From NCBI RefSeq assembly GCF_000018405.1, contig NC_009943.1, positions 62,001 to 126,000 of the forward strand: a stretch of DNA of 64,000 nt. The letters are read 5' to 3'. Positions 9,463-60,991 of this stretch are shown in pieces. The DNA comes from Desulfosudis oleivorans Hxd3 (GTDB lineage Bacteria; Desulfobacterota; Desulfobacteria; Desulfobacterales; Desulfosudaceae). The translations under genes were made by a program, and so were the position numbers. Numbering within the stretch: the stretch's first letter is position 1; every line of letters starts with the position of its first letter. Below the pieces are notes generated by a model. It was not told where the DNA came from and searched no databases. It was given only the letters and a program-made list of their open reading frames with translations.

Positions 9463-9752
9463 TTCGGCTTCCCTCGCGCAAACGGGTTTTCCGGCGCGGG
9501 CAGGAACTCGCCCGCCTGCGGCGGTGCTCAGACAGCCTGCCCGCTTTTTGCCGGAAAACCCGCTTGCGCTCGGCTGCGCCGCAATGGGCGAAGGCTCTCA
9601 TTGACGTTCGGCCCGTCATTGAACACCAGTCCTCTGATGGGTGCCACGGGCCAAGCGACAGCTTGCCCGTGCCGTGTTCCCGTGCTGCCGCTCACGGGCA
9701 AGGCCATTCGGCCTTGGCCCGTGCCACCCGTTAAAGAATAAGACGCACCTGT

Positions 9753-9819
9753 ATGCAGTACTCCCACAAAGCAAAGCCGGCCATGCACACCCGGGAGCGC
9801 CGCACCCCAGTGCGGCAAC
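9753..9819 (+). repeat. 67-bp repeat, left copy
   Basis: Inverted partner of 12526-12592. I count three mismatches across 67 bp. It contains a CCGCACCCCAGTGCGG stem. Confidence 0.85.
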
Positions 9820-9873
9820 TCAAACGGCAGACCACGCTTCAACAAACTTTCATGTCCCCAACGATCACCCACA

Positions 9874-9920
9874 CCCGTCATTGCCCAACTTGATTGAGCA
9901 ATCCAGTGTAAAGTTGACCT
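9874..9920 (+). repeat. 47-bp REP-like repeat, copy 2
   Basis: Direct repeat of 9211-9257 (CCCGTCATTGCCCAACTTGA...), forming the inner edge of the left repeat block. Confidence 0.75.
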
Positions 9921-10622: not shown

Positions 10623-11765
10623 TTAGCAAACAAGAACGTTTGGATATGAAGAGGTTCCCCTCACGCACATATATTGTTCCACATAAATAGCATTTCCATT
10701 ATCATCTGCTCCCCAATATTTCAGTGTAAACGATTCGGTGTTATAAGGAGTCCAGAATCTTTTATTTAAGTGTATCAAATTGTTGTTCTTCTCAATTCTG
10801 TAATTAACAATTTCCTTCGGATCACATCCAGCTTTATCGCATAACTGCGCGCTCGTCAGCGTCACCCCAACCCCGCCCGTCTCCTTGAACGTCCTCGTAT
10901 GATAATAATAATGGTAAGGGCTTATCCACTTATACTGAACGTTACTGAAATCAAGGCTTAACTTCGCCGTACAATTCTTAGTCCCAACTCTTGTTCTCGT
11001 AGTATCACAATTACTTGTCTGAGTAAACGAAACCCCAGAGCAAACCGTACTTGTAGCCGGCGTCCAACTGCTCACCGTACAAGTCGGCACACAGGTCTTT
11101 GTTCCCGTTTTCGTTCTCGTATTTCCGCAGTTGCTGGTCTGAGTAAACGACTCTCCCGAACAAACCGTGCTTCTCGCAGGCGTCCAAGTTGTATCTACAC
11201 AAACCTCATCCTCATCCTCAACCACCGGCGCCGTATCATCACAAATACAAGGAACCTCGGAATCTGGAATTTTGTGTAGAGGAACTTCTAAATCAATCGG
11301 CACAGAGCCCGCCCCTATTCCGCTAAGTCCTGCTCCTGGAATTGTAATCGTAGGACAAACAGGGCTTTCAGAACACCCGCTCCACTGCAAGTCTTTATAA
11401 TTGAAGCATTGGAAAGAATAATCATCACTAAATCTTCCGCATGCATCCCCCCCCTCTCGTGCATAATCAAAGCCGATACACTTGTCGCTATAACGACTCA
11501 CAACACAAACTTCTCCTTTATATTCTAAATCCGCACACTGCACCTTCTTACAAGGACTACAAACTCCCTCCCCATCCACACAAAGCTCGCCGGAATCACA
11601 AGGCACATAATCTTCCACGCCAGATTTAAATTCTAAACAATCATCCCCGTCGCCATCTTCCCCACAAATATTTCTAAACACCTTACCCAAATCATCATCC
11701 TTACAAAACGGCGGAGCCGCCACATCCGTATAACAATAATCCTGACACGGCACATCCTCGGTCAC
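10623..11765 (-). CDS. Cys-rich repeat protein of secreted/adhesin type
   Basis: The 380-residue protein starts at GTG 11765 after a GGGAGGGA ribosome site and overlaps the stop of the upstream gene as GTGA. It is very rich in Cys, Asp and Thr. The first 190 residues hold many CxxC- and CxDGEGxC-like pairs. Two 34-residue repeats at about 192-225 and 232-265 share WTPA, STVCSG, SFTQTSNC and GTK; a beta-rich tail ends in Cys. Such disulfide-rich repeats suit an extracytoplasmic protein, yet there is no signal peptide, so export may depend on the damaged upstream pseudopilin-like gene (inference). Codon use is AT-rich, unlike the neighbours, which suggests transfer. I do not recognise a named family. 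Confidence 0.55.
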   Translation of the reverse strand: MTEDVPCQDYCYTDVAAPPFCKDDDLGKVFRNICGEDGDGDDCLEFKSGVEDYVPCDSGELCVDGEGVCSPCKKVQCADLEYKGEVCVVSRYSDKCIGFDYAREGGDACGRFSDDYSFQCFNYKDLQWSGCSESPVCPTITIPGAGLSGIGAGSVPIDLEVPLHKIPDSEVPCICDDTAPVVEDEDEVCVDTTWTPARSTVCSGESFTQTSNCGNTRTKTGTKTCVPTCTVSSWTPATSTVCSGVSFTQTSNCDTTRTRVGTKNCTAKLSLDFSNVQYKWISPYHYYYHTRTFKETGGVGVTLTSAQLCDKAGCDPKEIVNYRIEKNNNLIHLNKRFWTPYNTESFTLKYWGADDNGNAIYVEQYMCVRGTSSYPNVLVC

Positions 11766-12393
11766 ATTCCCTCCCAGAAAAACAACTTAACCTCCTTCGG
11801 CGAAAAAACCGGCTCGTCACTCCCATCCCCCAAATCCGACGAGATAATCACACTATCCGCAAAAACATCCTTCTCCGGAATCGCCGTAAAAACTATCGAC
11901 GGCAACTTACAATGGTCTTCCGGGTCGCTGATATTACAAACCCGCAAAATATAACCCACATTCACCGGAACCTTACTCGCCACAAAATCATCCAACATCG
12001 CAAACACCGGGTCGCCCCGCAAATCAAACTTAACCTCAACAGCATCCTTTCTTAAACTCCGATTCTCCGCAATCTGCTCCAAAATCTGATTCTGCAAACT
12101 ATAAGCATAATCCCTCTCCGTCCTATCAAAACTAACCGGTTTCCATCCACAAATAGCCTTTTCCCGCAATCTCTGCGTCAAACTGCGGGCTTGCTTGTGC
12201 GACGTACAACAGTACGCCTCCGCGCAAACGCCTTGTTTTCCTTGACCTTGCGAAAAAATTCTCATTTCTGGATTGGAAACGTTGCTTGTGTCCTCATAGC
12301 AGATGGATGGACACTAACCGACTGATCCGAATACACCGTCACCATCACACCCGACACAATAAGTATCGCAATCGTCGCCTCCAAAATAAGGTA
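11762..12393 (-). pseudogene. Pseudopilin-like gene interrupted by a MITE
   Basis: From 12393 an open frame reads YLILEATIAILIVSGVMV and on to SDQSV; after removing the element at 12139-12314 and one TAACCG copy it continues in the same frame as SFDRTERDYAY and about 120 more residues to 11762. Reading restored, this is a hydrophobic N-terminal helix with Glu at pilin position 5 followed by a soluble domain, as in type IV pilins and pseudopilins. A stop and the right repeat block replace any leader peptide. The surviving frame could start at an ATG inside the element (12265), but that start has no ribosome site, so I treat the gene as broken. It is coupled to the Cys-rich gene by GTGA. Confidence 0.6.
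12139..12314. mobile_element. 176-bp MITE-like element, copy A
   Basis: The element begins GTTTCCATCCA and ends TGGATGGACAC, an 11-bp terminal inverted repeat with one mismatch (GTKTCCATCCA). It is flanked by a perfect 6-bp target duplication TAACCG (12133-12138 and 12315-12320). A second copy, same orientation, is at 60769-60947. It is too short to encode a transposase and must have been moved by one elsewhere. It split the pseudopilin-like gene. Confidence 0.88.
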
Positions 12394-12525
12394 TTACAGG
12401 TCAATTCTATGCTGGATCGCCGGGGTTCGGCCTTCGCCCTGGGGGCTACAGCCCGACATGCAAGCCGGGTACGGTGGAGGTCGTGCGGGACAGAAAGGCT
12501 ATTGACGAGGCACCCGGCCGTTTTT

Positions 12526-12592
12526 GTTGCCGCACTGGGGTGCGGCGCTCCCGGGGGTGCACGGCCGGCTTTACTTTGTGGGAGTACTGCAT
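12526..12592 (-). repeat. 67-bp repeat, right copy
   Basis: Inverted partner of 9753-9819, three mismatches by eye. Together the pair marks the inner zone of the inverted arrangement around the cassette. Confidence 0.85.
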
Positions 12593-12663
12593 GCCGGTGC
12601 GGCTTGTTCTTTATCGGGTGGCACGGGCAAACCGCAGGTTGCCCGTGAACATCAGTCCGGTAA

Positions 12664-12697
12664 AGATTGCTTCGTCGCTTTGCTCCTCGCAATGACG
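12664..12697 (-). repeat. 34-bp REP-like unit, copy 1
   Basis: AGATTGCTTCGTCGCTTTGC followed by TCCTCGCAATGACG; identical to 13219-13252. The ends ATTGC/GCAAT pair to make a hairpin. Close variants are common extragenic repeats in many bacteria. Confidence 0.8.
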
Positions 12698-13052
12698 CTC
12701 AAAACAAACACGGGCAAGCTATCGCTTGGCCCGTGGCACCCATGAACATTTACAATGCAGCAAAACGCGGCCGGCAAAGAAGCCCACCCGGTTTTTGGCG
12801 ACCTGAAGGTCGCCCCTACATTTGATTTTCCGCAGGCATGTCCCGTCCGGACATCAATGGCAAGCCTTCGCCCTTTGCGGCGCAGCCGAGTGAGGAGACT
12901 TTTTCGGGAAAAGCGAGCAGGTAATGTAGGGGCGGCCGGCGGCCGCCCGACTGATGGGCAACCGCGGGTTGCCCCTACAAAAACGCCGCAGGCGGGCGAG
13001 TTCATTTTCGCGCCGAAAAATTCTTCGAGCGAGGAAAGCCACGCCTGTGCGT

Positions 13053-15390: not shown

Positions 15391-15510
15391 GTGCCCATTC
15401 TTGGCCGGCCGCCATGCAACTGACGGCCGGGAACCTCGTCAGGTCCGGAAGGAAGCAGCGATAACCGGTGCAGGCAGTGTCATGGATCGTTCCCGGTCTT
15501 GAATGGGCAT
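15391..15510 (+). ncRNA. ffs: Signal recognition particle 4.5S RNA
   Basis: The conserved SRP domain IV is exact: GTCAGGTCCGGAAGGAAGCA, with the GGAA tetraloop and the asymmetric internal loop that binds Ffh. GTGCCCATTC at the 5' end pairs with GAATGGGCAT at the 3' end, giving a 120-nt hairpin of the short bacterial type without an Alu domain. A T-run (CTTTTTTT) immediately follows and should end transcription. It is a single-gene unit with its own promoter, between tilS (divergent) and grpE. Confidence 0.95.
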
Positions 15511-60761: not shown

Positions 60762-60768
60762 TCAATTA

Positions 60769-60947
60769 GTTTCCATCCATAAATGGCCTTTTTCCGCAAT
60801 CTCTGCGTCAAACTGCGGGCTTCCTTGTGCGGCGTACAACAGCACGCCTCCGCGTCAGCCCTTGTTTTCCTTGATCTTGCGAAATCCCGCCATGGCGGGA
60901 CTGGATTGGAAACCTTTTTCGTGTCCCCATAACCGATGGATGGACAC
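60769..60947. mobile_element. 179-bp MITE-like element, copy B
   Basis: Begins GTTTCCATCCA and ends TGGATGGACAC, as copy A at 12139-12314, with about 85-90% identity by eye. A perfect 6-bp target duplication CAATTA flanks it (60763-60768, 60948-60953). It lies between the ATP-grasp gene and the acyl-CoA synthetase gene, in a 230-bp gap, without harming a gene. An inner CCCGCCATGGCGGG palindrome (about 60886-60899) is absent from copy A. Confidence 0.88.
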
Positions 60948-60991
60948 CAATTAAGGGCCTTGTTGTGGCAGGTGTAAAACAGCGGCGGTTT

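Follow-up and report, generated by a model that had tools for sequence, protein, structure and literature searches.

Results and discussion

The DNA analysed here, referred to as the window, is a 64,000-bp stretch of the Desulfosudis oleivorans Hxd3 genome (bases 62001-126000 of the single 3,944,167-bp contig) that carries two copies of a short repeat. Copy A (176 bp, plus strand, window positions 12139-12314) lies between two TAACCG hexamers at 12133-12138 and 12315-12320, and copy B (179 bp, plus strand, 60769-60947) between two CAATTA hexamers at 60763-60768 and 60948-60953. A sequence-only reading had described both as miniature inverted-repeat transposable elements (MITEs), and flank comparison found them in place with perfect, differing 6-bp duplications. 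Both matched elsewhere in the genome and were recognised by a covariance model. They are of type II, consisting of an inner unit followed by a tail. The inner unit of copy A (12139-12280, minus strand, 138.4 bits in the covariance model) is a folded core closed by GTTTCC/GGAAAC, and its tail (12281-12314, minus strand) folds into a hairpin (GTGTCC..GGACAC) that bears the outer right end. In copy B the corresponding parts are a folded core at 60769-60913 (minus strand, 111.6 bits, also supported by its fold) and a tail hairpin at 60914-60947 (minus strand, from the fold), again bearing the outer right end.

The terminal inverted repeats are as previously read, with both copies starting with GTTTCCATCCA and finishing with TGGATGGACAC at the cost of one mismatch. 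This mismatch can be attributed to each end having a perfect partner inside the element: the left end GTTTCC (not GTGTCC) has a perfect complement, GGAAAC, inside the element at about position 141, and the right end GGACAC has its complement GTGTCC within the 34-36-base tail. The 3-bp length difference, ascribed earlier to a palindrome in copy B, indeed reflects an internal module, a CCCGCCATGGCGGG palindrome in copy B and AAAAATTCTCATTTCT in copy A.

Copy A interrupts a minus-strand reading frame whose 3' part, pilin-like by eye only, occupies 11762-12138 and whose 5' remnant occupies 12321-12397. Joining the flanks with a single TAACCG leaves the frame open across the junction, and in the occupied site the frame is shifted and runs into a stop. 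The joined frame, a reconstruction from the flanks, is consistent with an insertion, without amounting to an empty site in a relative. Another dispersed repeat is found at window positions 9528-9881 and 12430-12745, adjoining copy A, and the ORFs overlapping its two copies encode similar peptides (LPHWGAALPGVHGRL...). A small bacterial SRP RNA is located at 15403-15501 (Rfam RF00169, 57.5 bits).

Copies in the genome and the resident insertion sequence

The element had been called a two-copy MITE, which is correct inside the window and wrong for the genome, where it occupies at least 40 places (40 of 64 candidates scored). A search of the contig with copy A returned 41 matches corresponding to 40 places, two adjoining pieces representing one deleted copy. 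A search of the complete genome for GTKTCCATCCA-ended elements had been proposed, and the terminal pattern itself matched 79 times compared with 2 matches for the reversed control. Full copies of 173-182 bp are too short to encode a transposase of their own, as the initial description had it (neighbouring ORFs did not undergo a family search). The copies are mosaics of alternative modules.

Target duplications were assessed at the 28 of 40 places where both ends were present with at most two mismatches each; left out were 11 places where an end could not be recognised and one where an end had 3 mismatches. The 6-bp flanks agreed at 135 of 168 positions, compared with 76.3±5.4 in shuffled pairs, with 9 places perfect, 11 matching at 5 of 6 positions and 8 at 2-4 of 6. 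Flanking 6-bp duplications are supported at most of the two-ended places (20 of 28 with 5 or 6 of 6). Two of the poor places fit a 7-bp register better, one of them perfectly (TTGTTTT), and a small excess was seen at 7 bp (80 vs 64.7±4.8). No excess comparable to that at 6 bp was found among other lengths from 3 to 10 bp at these 28 places. The duplicated targets resemble TAATTA and are mostly TA-ended.

A transposase gene with the same ends had been predicted elsewhere in the genome and was found. Inverted GTKTCCATCCA pairs exactly 1,671 bp apart correspond to six insertion sequence (IS) copies with zero differences among them, GTGTCCATCCA ends and an open transposase frame. Each encodes an identical 450-aa protein with DUF772 and DDE_Tnp_1 domains that passes the ISNCY cut-off (NF033593, 484.9 vs 325 bits). 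Five of the ISs have 6-bp duplications (TAGGTA, TATTTA, TAGCTA, TAGTTA and TAGTTA) and one has the 7-bp duplication GGTACTA. We take this IS to belong to the ISDol1 group of the ISNCY family, and it may be ISDol1 itself. An ISDol1 subfamily is named in PMC8147514. Two of the identical ISs form a tandem pair with one common TAGTTA and TAGTTA at both outer sides too (G000:C1:2207811-2211158, locus L041), and an insertion cluster elsewhere combines two MITEs and one full IS inside 2.5 kb (G000:C1:3894569-3897008, loci L007 and L042).

MITE and IS have in common their ends, their duplication length (sometimes 7 bp in both) and their target taste, which makes movement of the MITE in trans the natural reading. 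Given many copies, 6-bp duplications and a transposase with the same ends, copies A and B are non-autonomous transposable elements as proposed. They are presumably moved in trans by the resident ISNCY transposase, an inference since no transposition was measured; judged from sequence features, mobility by this transposase is very highly probable. An origin of the MITE as an internal-deletion derivative of the resident IS was rejected because the interior has no IS homology beyond the terminal bases, likeness being limited to about 16 bp on the left and 12 bp on the right and other matches being at chance level.

Conserved fold of the core

To describe the interior, 31 inner units from ten genomes were aligned (alignment A1) and a structure of 52 pairs was written from individual folds. 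Both-sided change was observed in 29 of the 52 pairs, compared with 17.5±2.2 in shuffled alignments, and 132 cells were double-changed, compared with 39.6±4.8 after shuffling and 31-63 in slid controls. Further pair types were less striking (66 vs 57.5, equalled by 4 of 500 shuffles). In a larger alignment of 100 diverse sequences (A4), 48 of 52 pairs showed both-sided change (shuffled 39.6±1.6) and 1,045 cells were double-changed (shuffled 317±16; slid controls 161-247). Because alignments A3 and A4 were obtained by fitting to the model, they are biased towards the structure, and one drawn four-pair helix is paired in only 49% of A4 cells. Conservation is uneven: among 38 non-redundant units several core columns reach 1.5-2.0 bits and most outer-stem columns stay below 1. 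Some unpaired internal-loop columns rank among the more conserved positions, and by eye the minus-strand internal loop CAAGRTCAAGG / ACGCAGAGATTG is the most constant part. Ends, duplications and fold of the elements are directly observed, and the interior is a conserved folded family with covarying stems, not an IS leftover. We have high confidence that the conserved fold is functional.

The core extends well beyond its own genome. Copy B matched in 15 of 58 genomes, own genome included, in some cases over only 25-40 bases, and in 10 of the 14 other genomes with such matches the resident transposase had no match at E 0.001. A covariance model built from A1 matched 54 of 198 phylum genomes, own genome included, with 102 places in one closed 2.75-Mb genome (G250). 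When named genomes were scanned for one core pattern, at least 117 stretches matched. Among 80 matches listed, 76 belong by title to Desulfobacteria, to Desulfuromonadales and kin or to Deltaproteobacteria. The remaining four comprise two labelled only Proteobacteria/Pseudomonadota, one Myxococcales and one Oceanirhabdus sp. W0125-5 chromosome. This last genome is clostridial and lies outside the phylum; its stretch (L400, ca. 2466-2593) has a weak model score (35.3 bits), contains both core loop motifs exactly and is closed by other inverted repeats. Viral contigs yielded 0 stretches when scanned with a single core pattern. Against Rfam 15 no family scored above its gathering score, the window scan giving the SRP RNA only, and six loci searched at E up to 5 produced four matches, all sub-threshold.

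A second family of the same genome, F2, is a 125-bp repeat with GACGGCTTCGTAAAAAG ends; 40 of its 91 candidates were scored, which puts its copy number at 40 or more. It has the core loop motifs, as judged by eye, and about half of the fetched copies follow the plan of inner unit plus tail. All ten F2 loci tested matched the model at 29.5-57.9 bits. Since antisense matches of true members reach 58.5 bits, such moderate scores alone are no proof of membership, which rests also on the loop motifs and on the uniform orientation of all ten matches with respect to the F2 repeat. An exploratory search over 40 offset and length settings gave a 6-bp duplication signal (55/90 vs 32.0, z 5.7; 15 of 30 fetched copies). 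No parent was identified for F2, as the 75 end matches in the own genome included no IS-length pair that was convincing by eye.

Different ends around one core

The inverted repeats closing the core are unlike one another across the wider set, namely GTTTCCATCC, GTGTCCATCC, GTGCCTGAACGAAAAC, GGCTACCTTGAAAAATGG, GGCAACCTCTAAAAAT, GAGACCTTTGAAAAACG, GGAGGCTGTCCGAGAATG and GAGCCAGTTTCAAAACG. Duplications were tested by end class using units hand-picked from the listed matches, with eight sequences that fit no class left out and with one-base boundary shifts in eight rows of the 4-bp class and three of the 5-bp class. For GG-type (GGCTACC-type) ends, the 34 units gave a 4-bp signal (108 of 136 positions vs 63.5±4.6 shuffled; 19 units perfect), the remaining lengths between 2 and 9 bp being without excess; 21 of these units come from one genome, G250. 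GAG-type (GAGACC-type) ends showed a 5-bp signal in 17 units (56 of 85 vs 23.4±4.6; 3 perfect), with weaker excesses at 4 and 6 bp too. Outside the own genome, 22 of 44 GT-type units could be used, the other 22 being left out since their inner right end is not the outer end. Their signal lay at 6 bp (104 of 132 vs 69.5±3.9), with 7 of the 22 units perfect, and was accompanied by slight excesses at 7 and 8 bp. No significant duplication was obtained for the five units of class D (GGAGGCTGTCC ends). A comparison of six class consensuses gave 0.63 for the ends and 0.82 for the rest, i.e. the core, and is partly circular because the classes had been defined by their ends after looking.

Transposons with such ends were traced in part. 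A second ISNCY transposon, found in G051, has ends (TGNCTGAACGAAAA) similar to the GTGCCTGAACGAAAAC ends; CTAATTAA is printed on both of its sides and contains a TAATTA duplication. G023 encodes a transposase 64% identical to the resident one with GTGTCCGTCC ends and TAGATA. G051 contains eighteen ISNCY-like transposases with an identical score of 129.8 bits, and two loci inspected there (L215 and L224) have GTATCYGCTGAATTTC ends and the 6-bp duplications TATGTA and TATTTA. No ISNCY match was found in G002, G006, G039 and G055, which have ISNCY-type ends, and G016 gave weak matches only. Near-identical copies at different sites occur in G016 (L118-L129) and G006 (L130-L134), where ISNCY matches are weak or lacking. 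For the 4- and 5-bp classes no parent was identified. DDE_Tnp_1 was absent in four of five genomes searched, including G250, and G066 had a single match in a 176-codon frame. A one-end-variant scan of G250 returned two IS-length pairs (677049-678309 and 877184-878396), which are separate elements around other genes and were rejected as the 4-bp parent. At the first of these sites (L447, G250:C1:676549-678809), a gene that by eye resembles a cation efflux transporter lies between two equally oriented elements, as if the whole formed a composite unit.

The diversity of ends could in principle have arisen within one transposon lineage, if ends and transposase changed in concert and the core passed down vertically with no end swapping. 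In its favour, ISNCY transposons bear two of the end types: the resident IS and a transposon of G023 have the GTGTCCATCCA-like type, and a transposon of G051 has TGNCTGAACGAAAA. In addition, G starts nearly all ends. Differing duplication lengths, however, usually mark different transposases, and lengths of 4, 5 and 6 bp were obtained here with each class signal at or centred on a single length. Moreover, more than one end class occurs in each of the single genomes G139, G167, G196 and G222, and several end types are found together on one contig (L339). We regard a single lineage as possible and rather unlikely.

Strand bias of the fold

The two strands of the core are not equivalent. Among 59 sequences, non-redundant at 90%, the minus strand was more stable in 53, with a mean of -57.0 compared with -46.8 kcal/mol for the plus strand. 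Composition explains part of this gap, as shuffled minus strands also fold lower (-31.6 vs -27.6 kcal/mol). When z-scores against shuffled sequences were used, the minus strand was still favoured in 31 of 38 cases (p 3e-6). In a second set with a few loci in common with the first, the minus strand had the lower energy in 32 of 34 non-redundant sequences (14 of 16 with GTKTCC-type ends and 18 of 18 of the rest). Wobble G-U pairs at paired positions point the same way, with 110 on the minus and 43 on the plus strand in the second set and 112 and 79 in the first. Class GAGCCRGTTTC showed no wobble bias (4 vs 5), and the cells of the wobble test are not independent. The structure was drawn from plus-strand folds, so that the bias runs against the choice of structure. 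Together, the lower minus-strand energy and the wobble excess suggest a folded RNA.

These results also bear on whether the selected structure is DNA, i.e. a cruciform or single-strand hairpin that binds a DNA protein or aids transposition coupled to replication. In its favour, plus and minus strands alike fold far more stably than their shuffles (mean z -5.35 for plus and -6.80 for minus), and there is no orientation bias towards host genes. Against it stand the minus-strand advantage in all three tests and the excess of wobble pairs, and the purine-rich minus-strand loops look RNA-like, although this last point is an inference. A DNA structure thus appears doubtful. We favour RNA over DNA as the selected molecule with fair confidence, no transcript having been measured.

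Regulation of host genes through the orientation of the element was considered and set aside. Among 69 units no orientation bias towards flanking genes was seen, with both neighbours on the plus strand in 15 cases and both on the minus strand in 13, where ORFs were called crudely in short flanks. Because there is no orientation preference relative to host genes, a role for the element itself is favoured over host regulation, for example through a transcript that is protected or processed, or through protein binding.

An explanation with still less support is that of an ordinary MITE, derived from an IS and with a neutral interior, whose palindromes are kept by DNA-level processes such as template switching between arms that mimics compensation. 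MITEs often form stable hairpins (PMC10969869), and the interior modules vary between copies of the own genome, so that recombination among copies is likely. On the other hand, the interior lacks IS homology beyond the ends, some of its more conserved positions are unpaired internal-loop columns, and correction between arms predicts no strand bias, in conflict with the wobble counts of both sets. We consider this explanation improbable. A chance repeat or alignment artefact, for which we found no supporting evidence, is already refuted by the pattern matches relative to their control, the duplication statistics and whole-length matches in dozens of genomes.

Relation to known systems

ISNCY insertion sequences resemble the element in their ends and 6-bp duplications, and one of them is present as an autonomous resident encoding an ISNCY transposase; they differ in that the MITE interior does not come from the IS. 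For ERIC/RU and Correia/NEMIS repeats, we know of no end exchange around one core. Like the element described here, these are structured small mobile repeats with many copies, but they belong to other bacteria and have other sequences. The REPIN/RAYT system is similar in being a hairpin-based mini-element moved in trans by a separate gene. REPINs, however, use the RAYT protein, in contrast to the DDE-type ends with target duplications seen here. Prokaryotic MITEs in general are short, lack a transposase and have terminal inverted repeats, target duplications and stable hairpins, so that MITEs with stable folds are already known (PMC10969869). What differs from that account is an interior conserved across a phylum and common to different ends and duplication lengths. 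The same source describes the Chunjie MITE of Geobacter uraniireducens (Chen et al. 2008), with 178-235 bp, 38 copies, terminal inverted repeats and repeats. The core occurs in Geobacteraceae and Desulfuromonadales MAGs, and Chunjie could by analogy be a relative, which may or may not carry it. Within the titles and abstract beginnings available to us, we found no published account of one core that occurs with several kinds of ends and duplication lengths and shows strand-biased covariation.

Conclusions

In conclusion, the reading that best fits our data is that of a mobile, structured, RNA-like passenger riding different transposases. We consider it likely as a whole, with movement, transcription, RNA function and end exchange remaining inferred. 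In D. oleivorans the resident ISNCY transposase would move copies A and B in trans, and across genomes the core would have been placed repeatedly, as a structured passenger, between the ends of different transposons. Selection would then see the minus-strand RNA of the core. The likeliest guess as to its function is a folded transcript that makes insertions tolerable or aids spread when a host or transposon protein binds it or a ribonuclease processes it. Opinion is evenly balanced on the further step that the conserved non-coding RNA itself is the unit of selection, spreading through the phylum and at least one clostridial genome by using ends from transposons that are unrelated and have three or more duplication lengths.

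If this holds, the non-coding RNA would be the stable passenger and the transposon ends would be interchangeable. MITEs are usually viewed as ends without content. Here the content is conserved and the ends differ, which is why the element looks selected for its fold. The covariance model makes it possible to annotate repeats whose numbers rise to about a hundred in one genome and which have no Rfam family where tested. It also becomes testable whether bacterial MITEs can carry an RNA with a function and whether a single RNA can make use of several transposases.
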